DNA of 63,064 nt from Sulfobacillus benefaciens (lineage in GTDB: Bacteria; Bacillota; Sulfobacillia; Sulfobacillales; Sulfobacillaceae), in contig PXYT01000016.1 in the NCBI GenBank assembly GCA_003023725.1, positions 59,699 through 122,762 of the forward strand, given 5' to 3'. The notes under the pieces are model-generated. The model had not been told where the DNA came from. It saw only the letters and a program-made list of their open reading frames with translations, and searched no databases. Of this stretch, positions 3,701 through 14,674 are shown piece after piece; the first letter of the stretch is position 1; the number at the start of each line of letters is the position of its first letter. The position numbers and the translations under genes were made by a program.

Positions 3701-5632
3701 TTAACGAAACAGTCTTTTGGTTCTTGGCCATCTCCCGTAACCGCCCAAATGTTGACGGGGGTCTCCCCGTACCACTTTTCGCAGCTTCAATTCGACGGCA
3801 GCAATTTGTACTGGGTCGAAGAGATGCCGAACGAAGGGGGACGCAATGCCGTCGTCTGTTTCGATTGTTATGGCCAGACCGCGCCCATCACCGAATCCCC
3901 GTATAATGTCCGCACCCGGGCCCATGAATATGGAGGGCGCTCCTACGTGGTTCACGAGGATACAGTCTATTTCAGCAATTTCGCGGATCAGCGCCTGTAT
4001 CGCCAAAAACGGGGTGAAGACCCTATCCCCGTTACGGCACCAGGGCCCCTTCGCTACGCCGACATGGTTTTTGACGCCAGGCACCGCCGGATCATTGCGG
4101 TCCGGGAAGATCACCGCGTTTCTGACATTCATGCCGAAACCACTCTGGTCATTATTGATCCCCAAGGCGACGAGTATGGAACCCCTTGGGTGTCCGGGCA
4201 TGATTTTTACATGCATCCTCATATCAGCGAAGACGGCAGCAGATGCGCATACCTGGCCTGGAACCATCCCCAAATGCCATGGGACGGCACAGAATTATGG
4301 CTTGCCGATATCTCCTCGGAGGGTGAGTTGATTAATCGGCGGCACATCACTGGATCCGCCGCCGACGCGATCCTGCAGCCCACGTTTTCTCCCGGAGGCG
4401 TTTTAACCTTTCTTTCCGACCGCTCTGGCTGGTGGAACTTGTATCAGTGGGTCAATGATGACGCCCAGGCTGTGTTCCCTGCCCCTTACGAATTTGGCAT
4501 GCCACCTTGGGTCTTCGGCATGACGAGCTATGGCTATCTTAACGAAGACCGCATACTGGCCGTCTATACCGACGGTGGAATCCGACATTTGGCTCAGATT
4601 GACGTCAAGAGCCGCTCGCTGACCGAATGGCATTTGCCCTATACGTATTTTGACTCGCCCGCCGTTCGCGACTCGGGCCACGCCGCTTTCATCGGCGCTT
4701 CCTGGCACTCTCCCGTGGCAATTGTCAACCTCTGTGTCGCCCGAGGAACATCTGAGGTGATTAGACCCTCCCAAGTCGCGCCCATGGATACCCGGGACAT
4801 TAGTGTGCCCGTATTTCAACCATTCCCGGCAGCGGAAAGCCAACAGGCGTTCATGGCTTTCTATCCGCCGAACAACCACCGGTTCACCGGGCCCGATCAT
4901 GAATTGCCGCCTTTGATTGTAATCAGCCACGGCGGTCCCACCTCCACCGGTACTCCGCTGTTTAGCCCTGCCATCCAATACTGGACTACTCGCGGATTTG
5001 CCGTCGCAGACGTCGACTACGGCGGAAGCAGCGGTCACGGACGGGCTTATCGCAACCGGCTTCGCGGGCAATGGGGCATTGTTGACGTCGACGATTGCAC
5101 CCGGGCCGCCCTTTATTTAGCTGATCAAGGGGTGGTGGACCCGCAGCGGATGGTGATCCGCGGCGGGAGCGCCGGAGGATTCACCACATTAGCCTGCCTC
5201 ACTTTTCGCGACGTCTTCCGGGCAGGAGCCAGTTATTATGGCGTCAGTGATTTAGCTGCCCTCGCCCGTGAAACCCACAAATTTGAATCAAGATATCTGG
5301 ACAGCCTGATTGGACCCTGTCCCGAACGGGAAGAGATTTACCGCGAACGCTCTCCTTTGTTTCACGCAGAGCGGATCCATGCTCCGGTAATCTTCTTTCA
5401 AGGCCTTGACGACAAAGTGGTCTTACCTGAAAAATCCCAAATGATGGTGGAAGAGCTACGCCACAATCATGTTCCCGTTAGTTATATCGCATTTCCGGAC
5501 GAGGGCCACGGTTTTCGGAACGCCGACAACATCGAGCGCGCCATTCAAGCAGAATGGTATTTTTACAGCCGTATTCTGGGTTTCCCCTTGCCGGAACCAA
5601 TTGAGCCGGTGGCGATCGACAACCTTCCCTGA
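3701..5632 (+). CDS. S9 (prolyl oligopeptidase) family serine peptidase
   Basis: Cytoplasmic alpha/beta-hydrolase peptidase of the dipeptidyl/acylaminoacyl-peptidase group: a beta-propeller-like N-terminal half followed by the hydrolase domain. Counting from the ATG at 3749, the nucleophile Ser474 lies in GGSAGG, the acid is Asp555 (QGLDDKVV) and His587 lies in DEGHGF, so the triad is complete. The first usable ATG (3749) has no ribosome binding site. The in-frame codons before it spell FGSWPSPVTA, which resembles the usual N-terminus of this family (GTWPSPI type). The ribosome binding site AAAGGGG (3687-3693) lies seven bases before codon TTA at 3701, which is where a TTG start would be expected. 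I therefore place the true start at 3701 and flag it as a lost or non-canonical start codon. With that N-terminus the protein has 643 residues. Confidence 0.88.
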   Translation, partial: LTKQSFGSWPSPVTAQMLTGVSPYHFSQLQFDGSNLYWVEEMPNEGGRNAVVCFDCYGQTAPITESPYNVRTRAHEYGGRSYVVHEDTVYFSNFADQRLYRQKRGEDPIPVTAPGPLRYADMVFDARHRRIIAVREDHRVSDIHAETTLVIIDPQGDEYGTPWVSGHDFYMHPHISEDGSRCAYLAWNHPQMPWDGTELWLADISSEGELINRRHITGSAADAILQPTFSPGGVLTFLSDRSGWWNLYQWVNDDAQAVFPAPYEFGMPPWVFGMTSYGYLNEDRILAVYTDGGIRHLAQIDVKSRSLTEWHLPYTYFDSPAVRDSGHAAFIGASWHSPVAIVNLCVARGTSEVIRPSQVAPMDTRDISVPVFQPFPAAESQQAFMAFYPPNNHRFTGPDHELPPLIVISHGGPTSTGTPLFSPAIQYWTTRGFAVADVDYGGSSGHGRAYRNRLRGQWGIVDVDDCTRAALYLADQGVVDPQRMVIRGGSAGGFTTLACLTFRDVFRAGASYYGVSDLAALARETHKFESRYLDSLIGPCPEREEIYRERSPLFHAERIHAPVIFFQGLDDKVVLPEKSQMMVEELRHNHVPVSYIAFPDEGHGFRNADNIERAIQAEWYFYSRILGFPLPEPIEPVAIDNLP

Positions 5633-6505: not shown

Positions 6506-6550
6506 TTGGCCGCTGAAACGGCCGCACTTATTGCGCCGAAATACTGGTGA
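6506..6550 (+). CDS. candidate 14-codon leader peptide overlapping the ligase start
   Basis: A TTG-initiated frame of 14 codons (LAAETAALIAPKYW) follows a near-ideal ribosome binding site, AAAGGAG at 6488-6494. Its TGA stop (6548-6550) overlaps the GTG start of the ligase at 6547. The ligase itself has no ribosome binding site in front of its GTG, so translation by re-initiation is plausible. The alternative is that this is a displaced N-terminus of the ligase. No homology is claimed. Confidence 0.4.
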   Translation: MAAETAALIAPKYW

Positions 6551-8154
6551 AACAACACGAGAACCCAAATATTCCGCGTGTCGTCCCTCAATATTTTCAA
6601 CAATGGACTAAAACTAAGTCGAATGATCTCTATATCGTGGACCATAGTATGGAGCGCGACGAAGCCCGATGGACATTTGGGCAATTTGCTGAAATCGTCG
6701 ACGCTACGACTCGTGCGCTCCGTGATGAGGGAATTACAAATCATGATGTTGTAGCCGTTGAGCTGCCAAATAACTGGGAATTTGTCGCCTTAACCTTGGC
6801 CATTTGGAATTTGGGGGCAGTCATTTGTCCGATTATGCCCATCTTTCGTGAACATGAAGTACGCCAGATCCTTTATAAAACCCGTGCCAAGGTGTTTGTG
6901 CTGCCCAAAACATTTCGTCACTTCGATTTTCAAGACATGGCCCGCCATCTCGCGCAGGACTATCCCCACCTGACTATTTGGATGCGGGGAGAAACCGAAG
7001 AATTCCCTTCACTCCATGAGATGATGAATCCTAAACCCCTTACCGGTGATCTCTCTCTGTCTTTGCCCGATTATGACGATCTGGCCGAAATTGTGTTCAC
7101 CTCTGGTACGACCGGACGACCGAAAGGGGTTATGCATTCTCACCGGACACTATTGCGGGGACTGTTGATTCAGCGTGATTTTCTCCATTTGGGGTCGGAG
7201 GATGTGATTTTCATGCCCTCGCCGTTTGCTCATCAAACCGGATTTTTGTACGGCGTGGTCTTTCCCCTGCTCCTCGGAATTCCCGCCGTCTATCAGGATA
7301 TTTGGGAGCCTCGAACCGCCCTGGACTTGCTCTCCACTTGGCATGCCACCTTTTCCATGGGAGCCACGCCATTTTTTGCCGATTTAACCGCACATTATGA
7401 TCCGCTCAAGCATGACTTGTCCGCTCTAAAAATTTTTCTCTGTGCCGGAGCCCCGATTCCCCGGGTTTTGGTGGAAAAGGCTCACTCCCAGCTAGGTACA
7501 CATATTCTGACGGGATGGGGAATGTCCGAAAATTCCTTGGTTACCCTGGTCAAGCCCGAAGATCCGCTGGAAAAGACCTACTCCACTGACGGCCAGCCTG
7601 TTCCGGAAATGTTTTGCCGGGTTGTGGACGAAACCGGAAAAGTTTTGCCCCCGTTTACCGAAGGGGAATTGCAAGTCAAAGGTCCGCAAAACTTCATCGG
7701 TTACTTTGACGAACCCGAATTGACCGAGAAACTTTATACTGACGATGGATGGCTTAATACCGGCGACTTGGCCATTATCGATACGGACGGCTATATCCGC
7801 ATAACCGGACGTGCCCGAGATATGATCAACCGGGGAGGCGAGAAAATTCCTGTGTCCGATGTGGAAGACTTGCTTTACCGTCATCCCGCCATTAAGGAAG
7901 CGGCCTTGGTGGGGACGGCGGATGACAGGTTGGGGCAACGAGCCTGTGCGGTGGTGGTACTGAATCCTGGGGCACATTTAACCCTTTCTGAGCTGACCCA
8001 ATATCTGGATTCGTGTCATCTGACCAAACAATTCTGGCCGGAACGCTTGGAAATTGTTTCAGATCTACCGAAGACTCCCAGCGGCAAGATTCAGAAATTC
8101 CGGATCCGCGAATGGTTTGACCAAGGGCTGGACCCCCATTTGTCGTCACATTGA
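6547..8154 (+). CDS. AMP-dependent acyl-CoA synthetase/ligase
   Basis: A 535-residue ANL-superfamily enzyme that activates a carboxylic acid as acyl-adenylate and transfers it to CoA. Core motifs are present: the P-loop FTSGTTGRPKG near residue 183, the GWLNTGDL segment near 401 and the hinge GRARDMINRGGEKI. The C-terminal PSGKIQKF holds the adenylation lysine. Length is normal for the cyclohexanecarboxylate/medium-chain type, but substrate cannot be read from sequence. The start is GTG at 6547, inside the stop of the short frame at 6506-6550. No metabolic partner gene adjoins it. Confidence 0.92.
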   Translation: MKQHENPNIPRVVPQYFQQWTKTKSNDLYIVDHSMERDEARWTFGQFAEIVDATTRALRDEGITNHDVVAVELPNNWEFVALTLAIWNLGAVICPIMPIFREHEVRQILYKTRAKVFVLPKTFRHFDFQDMARHLAQDYPHLTIWMRGETEEFPSLHEMMNPKPLTGDLSLSLPDYDDLAEIVFTSGTTGRPKGVMHSHRTLLRGLLIQRDFLHLGSEDVIFMPSPFAHQTGFLYGVVFPLLLGIPAVYQDIWEPRTALDLLSTWHATFSMGATPFFADLTAHYDPLKHDLSALKIFLCAGAPIPRVLVEKAHSQLGTHILTGWGMSENSLVTLVKPEDPLEKTYSTDGQPVPEMFCRVVDETGKVLPPFTEGELQVKGPQNFIGYFDEPELTEKLYTDDGWLNTGDLAIIDTDGYIRITGRARDMINRGGEKIPVSDVEDLLYRHPAIKEAALVGTADDRLGQRACAVVVLNPGAHLTLSELTQYLDSCHLTKQFWPERLEIVSDLPKTPSGKIQKFRIREWFDQGLDPHLSSH

Positions 8155-8593: not shown

Positions 8594-10051
8594 TTACCCT
8601 CCAACGCGTCTGGGGGTATCGGAGGTTGCGACCGGCGGAGCCATGGTGTCGGCAGGCTGGTCCGGCTGTGTGAGCAAAGTCCACCAGGTGCGAGCGACCA
8701 AAAACGCGATGATGAGAAAGCCCACCGCCGCCACATAAAATCCTATCCCATAAAGATGAGGGTCGACGAATACATAGAGGAGTCCGCCCAAGAAGGCCAG
8801 AGTGGTTCCCGCAATGAATCCGCGCCCCAGCGCATTATGATCTTGCCTACGCGGGAGATAGCGCTCTGCGATGACCAGAACCAGAATGATCGCCGGAATC
8901 ATGAAAAACGCGAAGTCCTGGTGCCAAAATGTAAAGATGGCATCCGCTTGGGCTCCCGGTGCTTGAGGATTACCCGCGCCGAAATATTGCTCATTCAACT
9001 CAATCGCATACCCCGCCACGACGACCGTCACAATCGTCATGAGATAAGCCCAGGCTTGGGCCCAATGCAACAGCCGGGAAGATCCCGCCCGAGCATGTTG
9101 AAAGAGAAGAGCGGAGAGAGCCAACAACCCGCCTAGCATGACGAACACGCCAGTGACCAAATCATCGCCGGCAATCCCATCGATACCATGGGGTCCGAAG
9201 GCAAACAACGTCGGAGGTTGAGCCGTGGTGAATCCTGCCACCACGTAAATGACGGTCATGGCAACGATGCCAAACGCCATCATTATCAATCCCACGCGGG
9301 CCAGAGTGCGGGTTGCGGGTTTGAGAGCCCCGTAACCCCACTGCCAGACCAGAGCGGCCACTAAGGTTCCGATGACCGCCACCACCATTTCATGAGAATG
9401 CGAGGTGACGAGGTTGGCTGTCCAGGTGCCGACGCTCAGCCCTGCCCAGTGTGCGTAATCATCCGGCCAGCCCCAGGGCGCATGGGGGAATTCCAGCAAC
9501 CATCCCGCCACGTGACCCATAAGAGCCGCCAGCAGCATGGAGAAGCTGCCCAACCAGGCGACCCAAAACGGTAGGGTCCGGGATGCGGGCTGCTGAAGAC
9601 GATAATCGATCCAAAACCCCCAGATAAGGACGATAAGCATTTCGTCGAGAGCAAAGAATCCGGCAATCTGAGTCCACAGGGCAAAAGCGTTGGAAGGATT
9701 GTGGTCAAATAATCCGCCAACACTGGCTAAAAAAGTGGCCACCAGCGCTCCTCCCACGATCCACGTCTTCACATGAGATGAACAACACTCGAAGATTTCC
9801 ACCGTAACCAGGGCTAACACGCCGACAAGTCCAATGAGAAACCCATGGAGGAACATGACATTGCGCCAGACGATATCGGCACTGGCGGACGGCTCGTTGA
9901 AATAGGGAATGGACACATAAAGACTCAACGCTGCATACATTCCCAACCACGCTATGAGAAACAGCAAGGCCCGGCGATTGGTCCACCAACCCCATAGAGG
10001 GTGAGAAGACCCATTCTGAATGGGGAGATCTCGGGACGTATTCCGCGACAC
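8594..10051 (-). CDS. polytopic membrane protein, distant heme-copper oxidase-like His pattern
   Basis: A 485-residue protein with about twelve predicted membrane helices. It belongs to no family I can name with confidence. His69 in MFLHGF sits where subunit I of ba3-type oxidases has its helix-II heme ligand (TLHG). TANLVTSHSH (H218, H220) resembles the helix-X GHFH segment, and H180, H190 and H377 are further membrane-side histidines. The tandem His of helix VII and the His-Glu/Tyr of helix VI that hold copper B are not visible, so a catalytic oxidase is doubtful. The start chosen is GTG at 10051, nine bases after AAAGGAG; a TTG at 10060 lies too close to that site. No subunit II or cytochrome gene adjoins it. 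It could be a redox-linked membrane protein or an unrelated carrier. Confidence 0.7.
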   Translation of the reverse strand: MSRNTSRDLPIQNGSSHPLWGWWTNRRALLFLIAWLGMYAALSLYVSIPYFNEPSASADIVWRNVMFLHGFLIGLVGVLALVTVEIFECCSSHVKTWIVGGALVATFLASVGGLFDHNPSNAFALWTQIAGFFALDEMLIVLIWGFWIDYRLQQPASRTLPFWVAWLGSFSMLLAALMGHVAGWLLEFPHAPWGWPDDYAHWAGLSVGTWTANLVTSHSHEMVVAVIGTLVAALVWQWGYGALKPATRTLARVGLIMMAFGIVAMTVIYVVAGFTTAQPPTLFAFGPHGIDGIAGDDLVTGVFVMLGGLLALSALLFQHARAGSSRLLHWAQAWAYLMTIVTVVVAGYAIELNEQYFGAGNPQAPGAQADAIFTFWHQDFAFFMIPAIILVLVIAERYLPRRQDHNALGRGFIAGTTLAFLGGLLYVFVDPHLYGIGFYVAAVGFLIIAFLVARTWWTLLTQPDQPADTMAPPVATSDTPRRVGG

Positions 10052-10060
10052 GATGCTCAA

Positions 10061-11498
10061 CTCCTTTCACCATGAAGACGGGCGGACAATTCGCCATATT
10101 GCCGAATTGCGCACCATATTGCCGTCACCGTTTTGAGTGGAACAGGAAGGAGTGCCCGTTTGTTCCGGTTGAATACCACTTCCTTCACCATCAGCGTAAG
10201 TCCAAAAAAACTTTGTGCCTGCGTTCACATGTAGTGATTTCAGGGGGCTGCATGGCCTATAACCATCGGGCTCCTTCGACTCCCCCTTCAGTACTTTTTA
10301 ATATCGCTAGAATATTGTCGAATAGGATTGCTCGGGATTGAATTGTTGGAAAGAACTCCCTGATCACAAATTCACTCTCATATTACGCAGGGTTTCAAAT
10401 CCTTGCATTTCAAGGGACCTTCCATTCGCAGTCAACACGGCTATCGCTTTTAACGCGATTCGAACCCCGAGGGCAAGCATTGCTCGTCCACTTTGCCGAC
10501 GTCTGGAATCAACGATTGGCGGTAAAATTGGCGGTAAATCCGTGGCGAGTGGACCACATAATATTTCGGGCATTTCAGAGTCGCAAGGATCACTGGTATT
10601 AAATTGGCGCCCTGCTTCCGACGGAACCACTCGCCAAACAAGAGCTGGACCAAATGATATTCTCCACGGCGGGTTTTTCCGTAATGATGAAGATGCGCAT
10701 AACCTGGGTAAGGGCCTTGGACGCAATCAGACTATTATGCGCTGAGGAACATGGCAGAGTCCAGGAAACTACGGAAGCCAATCCGACATCGGCATGTTTG
10801 AACGGTCCAAAGTTACGCCTGGGGAGATTGCGCAAGACGCCAAGGGCCACAAACCCGTCGTCCAGCGATCAATGAGCTTCGGGAGCGATCCCTGAAACCC
10901 TCGCCTCAGCCCGTCAGGGTTAGGCGGCGGGAGAGTTCATCAATGGTTTCGTCCCCAGCCGCTCAATTTCTTAAAACTTGTCCAGTACGAATACCTTAGG
11001 GTGGGAATCTATTTGGGCCAGGGATCCCGTTCGTCGCAATCGCGGTGTCAAGCAAGTCCGTCGGTTCCTGGTTCTCCTGGTTCAAGGTCATACCGACTTC
11101 CAAATCATGAAGTGTGGCGCCAAGTTGGGATTGATCCAAAAGGTGGCGCATCTGATAAATTGATATCAAATCGGTACTGGTGGGAATACAATGTGGCATC
11201 ACGTGGAGCTATTGACACCCTGAGAACAAGCACAGACGGCACCCAGGCGGCTGAGAGCAAAGCGTCATACAGCCTCCGGGGATGAGCCATGCAGAATTTG
11301 TTGGTCGACATCTTAAATCGGAGGCATTCCCAACAGACCGGCAGGTTTCTCAGTTTCCTTAGGCCTCTCCCCGGATGGCATCAGGTGACAACTCGGTTCG
11401 TCGCAAAATGCGCCCTGCCGCAACCTAAAGCAACAAACCTAAAGAGGACGCAGTTCAGCGAGATCTGCGAACCTCCTTCCGCACTATTCGCTACGGTA
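10061..11498. other. 1.4-kb stretch without a supported gene
   Basis: Only short overlapping frames occur in all six phases. Minus-strand stretches around 10599-10850 and 10996-11202 have protein-like composition but are split by stops, consistent with a decayed gene I cannot identify. The first bases hold the upstream region of the membrane-protein gene. No terminal repeats or RNA gene were recognised. Confidence 0.4.
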
Positions 11499-12719
11499 TC
11501 ATCGCGAACGGCTTATAATGAGAGACGCATTCTGTCCTCCAAATCCGAAGGCATTCACTTGCACTATTTCTACAGATAGAGTCCTGGGCTCATGCAAAAC
11601 GACGTCGAAATCCACCTCAGGATCGAGATGGCGCGTTCCTTGCGTCGCAGGGACAACACTTTCGTGCATGGCTCGGATGGCGGTAATTACCGACATCGCG
11701 CCTGATGCTCCCATGCTATGGCCAATGTGCCCTTTTATGGAAATCACCACAGTGTGCGGCGATCGATAAACTTGATTGATAGCGCGAATTTCGGCCCGGT
11801 CCCCTACAGGAGTTGCGGTGCCGTGGGCCAAAACCAGATCAACGTCGGAGGCTGTGAAGGACCCTGATTCCAGGGAGCGCTGCATAGCGCGGGCCTCCCA
11901 TTTTCCGGAGGGGTCAGGCGCAGTCACATGATATCCGTCCGCCAAAGAGGCATATCCCTTGACATACGCCAAAATCGGCTGTCCCCGTCTAAGAGCATGA
12001 GCTTCCGATTCCAAGATGACCACCCCCGAGCCTTCCCCCATGACAAATCCCGTTCTGTCCCGGTCAAAGGGTTTTGAAGCATCCGAGCCATGAGTGGCGT
12101 GAGCCAGCGCATGGGCATGAAACAGACTGGCACTGACAAGCGGGTCCAATAAATTCTCCACGCCGCCCGCAATGGCCACATCGACCATTCCGGACTGAAT
12201 CAGTCGGGCGGCCATGCCGATGCTGTCAATACCGGAAGCACAGGCAGAGGTCACAGTCAATTGAGGCCCATGCACGCGGTAATGCATGGCCACGTGTGAC
12301 GCCGCCATGTTGGGGATGACAGAGGCCATAAGCCGGGCAGGAACCTTGTGGATTCCTTCCGTAATATAAGCTGATTGCGCCACCGCCAGATCCGGTACGC
12401 CCCCCATGGAGGTTCCCATAACTACGGCCGTCCGTTCTTCGGGCAAGACATTTAGTCCCGCTTGAGTCAGGGCTTGGGATACGGCGGCCAGTGTGTAAAA
12501 AGTAAACCGGCTGGCATTGCGCAATACCCGAGGATCATCGACCACGTCTTTGGGATTGAAAGAATCTCCGACCCTAGACTGCCAAATGGGGGAAGCAATA
12601 CCCGGTATCATGACCCCTTCGATGGCCTGTTCCCCCTCCAAAAGCCGATGCCAGAACTCATCCACTGTTAGACCGAGAGAGGCAATGATACCCATGCCCG
12701 TAATCACACACGAATCCAT
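11499..12719 (-). CDS. fabF: beta-ketoacyl-ACP synthase II-type condensing enzyme
   Basis: A 406-residue thiolase-fold enzyme that condenses malonyl-ACP with an acyl-ACP in fatty-acid (or polyketide) chain elongation. The KAS II catalytic triad is complete: Cys160 in SACASG, His299 in AHGTATPVGD and His331 in KGHIGHSMGASG. Length matches FabF. The ATG at 12719 follows AAGGGAG. It lies 23 bases downstream of tatA on the same strand, so the two are probably co-transcribed, an uncommon pairing. No acyl carrier protein, malonyl transferase or ketoreductase adjoins it. It may be a second, specialised synthase rather than the housekeeping one. Confidence 0.9.
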   Translation of the reverse strand: MDSCVITGMGIIASLGLTVDEFWHRLLEGEQAIEGVMIPGIASPIWQSRVGDSFNPKDVVDDPRVLRNASRFTFYTLAAVSQALTQAGLNVLPEERTAVVMGTSMGGVPDLAVAQSAYITEGIHKVPARLMASVIPNMAASHVAMHYRVHGPQLTVTSACASGIDSIGMAARLIQSGMVDVAIAGGVENLLDPLVSASLFHAHALAHATHGSDASKPFDRDRTGFVMGEGSGVVILESEAHALRRGQPILAYVKGYASLADGYHVTAPDPSGKWEARAMQRSLESGSFTASDVDLVLAHGTATPVGDRAEIRAINQVYRSPHTVVISIKGHIGHSMGASGAMSVITAIRAMHESVVPATQGTRHLDPEVDFDVVLHEPRTLSVEIVQVNAFGFGGQNASLIISRSR

Positions 12720-12742
12720 GGCTGTCTCCCTTCACAAGGTTT

Positions 12743-12994
12743 TCAATCGGAACCGTTGTCCGTGGAGTGAGCGGAAAATGAATGGGGATCCGGTGAATCG
12801 GATGGTTTATTATCGAAGGTCGCGTTCTGTTCTTGATTGACTGACGAATTTTTCGTGCCATGAAGTTCGTTTTGAAACTCTCTAATCCCCTTGGCCAAAT
12901 CCGATCCCAAATGCGGCAGCCTCTTGGGTCCAAACACTAAGAGGGCAACAACCAATAACAGTACAATGTGCATCGGAGCAAACAAATCGTCCAT
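12743..12994 (-). CDS. tatA: TatA/TatE-family twin-arginine translocase subunit
   Basis: An 83-residue protein with the TatA layout: a short N-terminal membrane helix (MHIVLLLVVALLVFGPKRLP), the conserved FGPKRLP hinge with its Phe-Gly, an amphipathic helix LGSDLAKGIREFQNEL, and a polar, disordered tail rich in Ser and Asp. TatA forms the pore that exports folded proteins with twin-arginine signals. The ATG at 12994 follows GAAAGGAAG; an upstream in-frame ATG at 13087 would add 31 residues unlike any TatA. No tatC is near. It heads a likely operon with the ketosynthase. Confidence 0.9.
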   Translation of the reverse strand: MDDLFAPMHIVLLLVVALLVFGPKRLPHLGSDLAKGIREFQNELHGTKNSSVNQEQNATFDNKPSDSPDPHSFSAHSTDNGSD

Positions 12995-13063
12995 TGAGTC
13001 GCCGCTTCCTTTCTTAATCAGACATTTTTCATCAGGAACGATTCCCGTTCCCCCCACTCTCAC

Positions 13064-13085
13064 GATCAGCCGATCAGTGCTGATC
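13064..13085. promoter_or_regulatory. 7-bp inverted repeat upstream of tatA
   Basis: GATCAGC (13064-13070) and GCTGATC (13079-13085) form a perfect inverted repeat around eight bases. On the tatA strand TGATC occurs three times within 24 bases. It lies 70 bases upstream of the tatA start and could be an operator. A second small repeat, GGAACG/CGTTCC, lies between it and tatA near 13036-13052. Confidence 0.35.
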
Positions 13086-13087
13086 AC

Positions 13088-14674
13088 AACTCAGACAGCC
13101 ACGGTTCGGTCCGCCCCTATTATACTCTTCAATTCCGGGTAAATAGAGTGCCTTCTCCTCACCGTGCGCATTGTCACGGAAATCCCCGTTTCCTCAGTTC
13201 TCAATAGCACACTTTGGTTATGCATATATCGTCGTGCGTTGGGAACTTGTCCCGCAGCAAAAGCGTATGCGGGAAAAGTTTGTCCAAACCCGGCCCTGGC
13301 CGTCAAACTGACTCGGCGCACCGATCACAAAACCGCATAAAAGGGCCCGCGTTATCCTCGCCAAGGAACCCCAACGATTCAGCGTCATGCCTGGGGAAAT
13401 GAGCACACGTCATCTGAGGTCCAAGTGGCTCCATCACAGCAAACACCGGAAAGCCATTAATCTCCGGGAGCGACCCAAAATACCCACCCGCGGTATGAGA
13501 CGCGGGAGACGACGATTGGGGTGTTGAGAGGATAAAGCAGATCAGAGGTGATTGGTCAGTCGGTGGTGATACGCCCTTGGCGGCATGGTTCTGTGTCTCT
13601 CCCTGTGACAAAGGCGGGACATCTGGACATTCCGTATCGCGGTGCAGTCTTCGCCTTCATCGGGGTGTTGGCCCAAGGCGAGCTAGAATCCAAGCACATC
13701 GAGGCATTTCGCGATGAACCCTTTCTTTTCGATGGCGTTAGGCCTCGGCCCGATGCCGTCAAGTCTGGATCCGGAGCCAACGGCTGAACCAAGCAATCCT
13801 TGGGAAGAATAGGCCGGCCATTGGGCCGTCCCTATCCAGGGGATAGCCGACAAATTGTTACCGCAGCACATACCGGCCCGCCAAATCGGAGGAACTGGGT
13901 ACGCACCCGTGGATCTCGATGTGGCCCCTTATAATACTGAGACAACAAAACAAGGAAAGGAGTGTTCCGCACGTCCCGAACGTAGAGCCAACGGATAGCA
14001 AAGGCGCGAACAAGCCCAACATCTTCTCGGCAAATTCCGGATTTTTACTCTTGCCAGCATAAATCGAACCCGGTACCACAGTACCACAGCTCTTCTCGCG
14101 TTCTCGGAACTGTCTCGAAACTCCCAAAAGCGGTGTGCTAAGGCGACTTTGAGAATCAACTTTCACTTTGCAGAGGCAATAAGGTGTTGCTCCGCGCACC
14201 TTACGGCTATTGGTGTTCTGACAACATCATGGGACCAATTGAAAAGATCGTCCGGAGGGCCTTCGCCACGAGGAGATACCGCCTTCATTGCATGCGCCCA
14301 ATAGGAGCTTAGCGTGGGTGATCATAGACCATGCGAAACTCCGTCTTGACAACGAATCCGAGGTTTTCCGACAAGTGGACTCTTTGTGGAAAGACTGACG
14401 ATTTAGATTCTATTAGTGCCTCAAAGCGCTATTCCATATCAGGTTGATGGAATCCGGATCTATGGACGCCAGAGTCGAATAACGGCAAGTCAAACTCGCT
14501 TTAGGACCAAAATATCGGCACTTCTCGTCTTCACGCTCACCGTCAACTTCCCACTGGCCGTTTTCGGCCGAAACCATCTCTCCTTATGGAAAAGTGCTGC
14601 GTCCTAAAGATCCAGAGCGCTTTTCGGTGTCATGCCGAGACGACAACCAAAGCCACGCCAGAAGGAACAGGACC
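13088..14674. other. 1.6-kb stretch without a supported gene
   Basis: Short frames only. A minus-strand frame at 13858-14199 contains a hydrophobic segment and one at 13303-13611 has a CDRC motif, but neither has a start signal or a family I recognise. The plus-strand frame at 13548-13787 is likewise unsupported. Decay of older genes is likely. Confidence 0.4.

Follow-up and report, generated by a model that had tools for sequence, protein, structure and literature searches.

The window analysed here, a stretch of 63,064 nucleotides from Sulfobacillus benefaciens, carries on its minus strand a gene of 485 codons that is flanked by an acyl-CoA ligase-like gene (6547-8154, plus strand) and a FabF-like gene (11499-12719, minus strand). 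Open reading frame calling lists the gene as 8594-10060 on the minus strand from a TTG codon, which adds three residues to the product started at the GTG at 10051. The GTG start is the better supported because the sequence AAAGGAG lies 9 nt before it but abuts the TTG, and the boundaries of 8594-10051 given in an earlier note on this DNA look right. Residues are numbered here from the TTG at 10060, which gives the numbers of the earlier note plus three. Relative to its 86% identical homolog L009, the window gene differs at 65 first, 32 second and 208 third codon positions over 488 codons, and the protein is therefore under purifying selection. The gene and the residues on which the argument turns are as follows.

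8594..10051, minus strand: gene for a protein of 485 amino acids with a predicted 12-helix heme-copper oxidase (HCO) fold, GTG start (AF2 model and fold search)
10061..10067, minus strand: AAAGGAG, read from the sequence as the likely ribosome-binding site of the GTG start, which it precedes by 9 nt
9845..9847, minus strand: H72 on helix 2 (H69 in the earlier note), 25/26 relatives; proposed, in the register favoured below, to replace the helix-6 histidine of the HCO CuB site
9701..9706, minus strand: D119-H120, where helix 3 ends, placed by profile DP on the HH of HCO helix 7
9512..9514, minus strand: H183 on helix 5, in a GHIAGW motif, 22/26; kept except in the CtaB-linked clade and in L034
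9398..9400, minus strand: H221, first histidine of an HxH on helix 6, 25/26; proposed to bind a high-spin heme on the proximal side
9392..9394, minus strand: H223, second histidine of the HxH on helix 6, 26/26; proposed ligand of a low-spin heme
8921..8923, minus strand: H380 on helix 10, 26/26; proposed to complete the axial ligand pair of the low-spin heme

The encoded protein has no family match in Pfam, NCBIfam or PHROGs by profile search, no convincing Pfam match was obtained for any of 16 family members, and profile searches against PDB sequences, with the single protein or with the 16-member alignment, returned nothing convincing; the profile libraries that were searched miss the family entirely. 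The best NCBIfam match among the members was to a short peptide family (E 0.00098) and was taken as chance. The PF00115 model misses the window gene, yet scores seven true COX1 genes of this genome at 364-517 bits. These seven genes are intact, on contigs C104, C153, C140, C145, C108, C94 and C112 of genome G000, and make up a large terminal oxidase set. A 444-amino acid membrane ORF of the same genome, at locus L008 (G000:C90:111929-112084), resembles COX1 weakly (E 2.3e-4, a match below the cut-off), has no Pfam match and is perhaps another unlisted HCO relative.

A contig scan found seven related loci, one from a Sulfobacillus sp. and the others from Bacillota or Clostridiales bins. Relatives are encoded by 14 of 101 near genomes and by 23 of 154 class genomes, or 24 if a short, weak match in G062 is counted; some class genomes have two to five matches each, fragments included. 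In the phylum sample 6 of 398 genomes match, with long matches only in G000 and G088 and short, weak ones in the other four. Altogether 37 distinct ORFs match the family profile, of which 26 near-full-length sequences were used below and 11 partial or weak ones were dropped. The family appears to be restricted to its class and to be highly divergent from HCO subunit I.

The reduction of O2 and NO in respiration is mainly the work of HCOs, whose subunit I is a ring with pseudo-threefold symmetry, thought to have been assembled from three four-helix units. An AF2 model of the whole window protein, built from a seven-sequence alignment, has 12 helices (pLDDT 64, pTM 0.71). Cytochrome oxidase subunit I chains take ranks 1-5 of a Foldseek search with this model, the best with an E-value of 5.7e-3 and none below 1e-3, and from rank 6 onward MATE transporters appear with low TM-scores of 0.13-0.19. 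The best 50 VIA-align rows are all HCO or nitric oxide reductase (NOR) chains (50/50, Z 19.8-24.5), and sequential rmsd across the cbb3 and NOR rows is 3.5-4.1 Å. An HCO subunit I fold, with the 12-helix ring seen in the predicted model by AF2, Foldseek and VIA-align, is thus well supported at moderate model confidence, and a transporter fold, the outcome against which the earlier note had set its HCO suggestion, was not borne out. The structurally closest chains are the cbb3 oxidase 3mk7 (Z 24.5, rmsd 4.1 over 393 residues) and the NOR 4xyd (Z 23.8), not the ba3 type to which the earlier note had likened the histidine spacing.

In HCOs, the low-spin heme takes one ligand from helix 2 and another from helix 10, where it is bound by the second histidine of an HxH whose first histidine is the high-spin ligand; CuB is held by a histidine of helix 6 and by the HH pair of helix 7. 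The COX1, cbb3 and NOR sequences used for comparison carry these motifs. The three histidines singled out in the earlier note, H69, H218 and H220 in its numbering, are present (H72, H221 and H223 here) and are kept in 25, 25 and 26 of the 26 relatives, which exceeds chance, but that set of ligands was incomplete without H380, which is invariant. Their placement is not that of an ordinary HCO, since the HxH pair sits on helix 6 whereas HCOs carry theirs on helix 10. It was correct that the copper B histidines are not seen: HH occurs nowhere in the protein, and D119-H120, which might take its place, is poorly conserved (D in 17/26, N in 5/26, H in 16/26), so the CuB set, a helix-6 histidine plus an HH following helix 7, is absent. 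The residues four positions after H72 and H221 are I76 and M225, each invariant (26/26); they occupy the positions at which the HPEVY of A-type enzymes has a tyrosine four after the CuB histidine and the HxxxE of NOR a glutamate four after the FeB histidine, and neither motif is found. The idea of an HCO relative in which no copper site can be seen therefore stands as to the predicted fold and the missing HH, while its ligand set, its likeness to ba3 and the placement of its histidines have to be changed.

H72 and H221 are both lost in one family member, L034, which lies on a long branch. Their joint loss is what would be expected if {H72, H221} and {H223, H380} formed two sites. This bears on the possibility that an HCO-like 12-helix fold has been reused for a task without heme, for instance in transport or sensing, where the histidines would take part in proton or metal transfer. 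The lack of a sequence-level HCO match in the family libraries, the absence of CuB, and a set of conserved acids (D300, invariant in 26/26, with D299, D373, E354 and E357) are compatible with such reuse; the conservation of the histidines and their pairwise loss argue against it, as does a heme O synthase-like gene beside the family gene in four of four loci of one clade, though none was seen beside the window gene. We consider reuse without heme to be improbable.

Because the HxH sits on helix 6, the register between the family and the HCOs was tested. The family (F) and the HCOs (H) were each divided into thirds of four helices and compared with our own profile DP aligner, the -glob mode of hhalign being unstable, with z-scores taken from 12 or 60 shuffles per cell. 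With a NOR profile of 30 sequences, the best local hhalign match joins family residues 215-281 (helices 6-7) to NOR residues 372-440 (helices 10-11) with a score of 39.0, an E-value of 4.4e-4 for one comparison; none of 150 block shuffles reaches this score (maximum 30.7). The same register of helices 6-7 on 10-11 is best with cbb3 (five sequences; 31.4, 0/150 shuffles), and both the NOR and the cbb3 profile place H221 on the first histidine of HCO helix 10. In comparisons between HCO classes the helix-10 third best matches itself in six of six cases, and the family third that matches it is helices 5-8. The HCO thirds are, however, alike (H1-H3 scores up to 63), and therefore one matching third cannot fix the register. 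A by-eye register in which H380 was the first histidine of the HxH, with a D-x6-H that fits the A-type motif, was set aside: in a scan with the helix-10 profiles H380 took ranks of only 3 to 33, and with NOR and cbb3 it was H221 that came first.

Over the whole length, the profile DP aligner with NOR ranks the rotated order on top at both gap settings (59.9 versus 48.3 and 36.4; 34.1, 30.5 and 22.7). At the first setting the permuted order puts H380, D119, H120, H221 and H223 on five ligand columns of NOR, with H72 four positions off; H380 falls on the helix-2 histidine of NOR at this one of the two gap settings, and not on the helix-2 histidine at the second setting or with cbb3. Summed over five HCO classes for the 26 members, the scores are 20.2 for this rotation (R1), 17.7 for the other rotation (R2) and 9.6 for the ordinary order (R0). 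In the CtaB-linked subset (three sequences; zero columns) the sums of 6.7, 7.6 and 3.4 for R1, R2 and R0 do not separate the registers. Rotation of the family sequence leaves the local hhalign scores unchanged and speaks neither for nor against permutation, and family helices 1-4 or 9-12 alone show no convincing similarity to HCOs.

The other rotation would equate family helices 5-12 with HCO helices 1-8 and family helices 1-4 with HCO helices 9-12, which would make H221 the ligand on helix 2, put H72 in the place of the second HxH histidine and turn H380 into a CuB-type histidine. This is the register preferred by the B-type profile (four sequences), which matches family helices 5-7 to HCO helices 1-3 with a score of 32.1 (0/60 shuffles), and by a mixed A/B set of 20 sequences, which gives 30.1 in the same 5-7 on 1-3 register (2/150 shuffles); PPTL after family helix 7 also resembles the YPPL that follows A-type helix 3. 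The A1 and A2 profiles gave nothing, 19 and 28 of 60 shuffles scoring as high. The structurally closest classes, NOR and cbb3, favour R1 instead, family helices 1-4 have no match to HCO helices 9-12, which is the most conserved third, and one histidine would have to be gained and another lost. We regard this opposite permutation as very improbable.

A further possibility is that there has been no permutation, and that the protein is a relic in the ordinary helix order that lost the CuB HH and the second histidine of helix 10, gained a second histidine on helix 6, and holds one rearranged heme or none. The sequential fold match along the whole length fits this, but a sequential aligner is blind to permutation, and therefore the whole-length VIA-align match does not discriminate between the registers. 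An AF2 model of helices 1-8 (pLDDT 73, pTM 0.73) is divided in its verdict: among the best 50 VIA-align rows this fragment lies on TM1-8 in 45, which are A- and B-type chains, and on TM5-12 in five of five cbb3 rows, with tied Z-scores of 16.5 and 16.8. Weak signals in the ordinary register come from F3-H3 with cbb3 (z 2.9, 0/60 shuffles) and F1-H1 with the B-type profile (z 2.6, 0/60). Against these, the ordinary order has the lowest of the three summed scores, histidines would have to be both lost and gained, H223 would have no explanation, and the low-spin pair would be broken up. Read in ordinary order, helix 10 has a single histidine and not an HxH; in the rotated order H223 and H380 fit the low-spin pair. 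An unpermuted relic is a doubtful reading. A rotation by four helices is favoured rather than proven, as the B-type register differs and the predicted structure is ambiguous. The titles and abstract openings in our literature search contained no mention of circular permutation in heme-copper oxidase or nitric oxide reductase.

Set beside the known systems, the family shares its 12-helix fold and HxH with CcoN of cbb3 oxidase, whose helices 10-11 match family helices 6-7, but CcoN has the helix-7 HH and the CuB triad, both absent here, the family HxH is on helix 6, and no family profile match was obtained. NorB of cNOR and qNOR is likewise similar in fold and HxH and gives the strongest profile match; unlike NorB, the family has no HH and no glutamate four residues after the helix-2 or helix-6 histidine, and the order of its histidine-bearing helices is rotated. 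The A- and B-type (ba3) COX subunit I proteins of PF00115 have the same fold, and those of B-type give a profile match to family helices 5-7 in the other register, but the family has no PF00115 match and neither HPEVY nor HH. NnrS is a 12-helix heme/copper membrane protein; the family resembles it as a 12-helix membrane protein, but 0 of 16 members match the NnrS model (PF05940). A search for NnrS in the class genomes found none, though its control was also unmatched. Two proteins of 600-610 amino acids, L136 and L137 (from G063 and G094), have an AHGHAQLLGW-type motif and are weakly NOR-like; L136 is in addition weakly NnrS-like in Pfam, below the cut-off.

The neighbors of the family genes point to heme and redox chemistry. 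In all four loci of the divergent group, L074, L075, L077 and L078, the heme O synthase model TIGR01473 is the best match to the gene next to the family gene; its 185-207 bits fall slightly short of the cut-off of 210.3. A fusion of a UbiE-type methyltransferase with a universal stress protein (Usp) comes directly next in L077 (13402-14844), and a UbiE-Usp fusion (12625-14115) lies two genes downstream of the family gene in L085, whose product is 52% identical to the window protein; such fusions thus accompany family genes in two clades. Downstream of the L074 gene are genes for an Fe-S protein, NrfD and a molybdopterin oxidoreductase. In family f39, the gene is repeated in three of three loci (L070-L072, from G120, G121 and G119) beside genes for two secreted proteins and one small secreted protein, a cluster without known function, and an ApbE-like gene is present in L070 and L071 (2/3) and also in L084. 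The L084 locus shares this cluster of a repeated family gene with secreted proteins of no assigned family; its copy at 4376-5497 is a fast-evolving, frameshifted cousin that has the same losses of H72 and H221 as L034.

We conclude, with a probability of roughly two in three, that the window gene encodes an HCO-fold heme protein, a divergent relative of subunit I without the canonical CuB histidine triad, heme binding being deduced from the conserved histidines. We do not class it as an HCO, because PF00115 does not match it and the CuB ligands are missing. If the ring is pseudo-threefold like that of HCOs, H223 would face helix 10 and H221 would face helix 2, whatever the evolutionary path. 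From these natural pairs, H223/H380 and H221/H72, and from their conservation, one pair being invariant and the other co-lost, we propose a low-spin heme and a second site without copper. One low-spin b/o-type heme would be held between H223 on helix 6 and H380 on helix 10, and a second heme would probably have H221 as its ligand and H72 on the distal side, at the position of CuB in HCOs.

Relative to known HCOs these sites would be shifted by one four-helix unit round the ring, and the simplest route to such a shift would be a circular permutation, family helices 9-12, 1-4 and 5-8 corresponding to HCO helices 1-4, 5-8 and 9-12. That the family represents a naturally permuted HCO fold, displaced by exactly one four-helix unit, with the bis-histidine low-spin and high-spin-type heme sites kept and CuB replaced or lost, is a tentative proposal to which we give somewhat less than even odds. 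Electrons may pass from quinol or a small carrier to the low-spin heme and from there to the second one, at which NO, O2 or a similar small ligand could bind. Ordinary four-electron reduction of O2 is unlikely because there is no CuB and neither the helix-2 nor the helix-6 histidines have a tyrosine at position +4; a redox or NO-type role, or one in electron transfer, is favoured. If the family has kept the HCO ring yet moved its heme sites by one unit, the pores of the ring would be interchangeable. The origin of the HCOs by triplication of a four-helix unit would then be testable, and Sulfobacillus-like bacteria would possess a copper-free offshoot of these enzymes.
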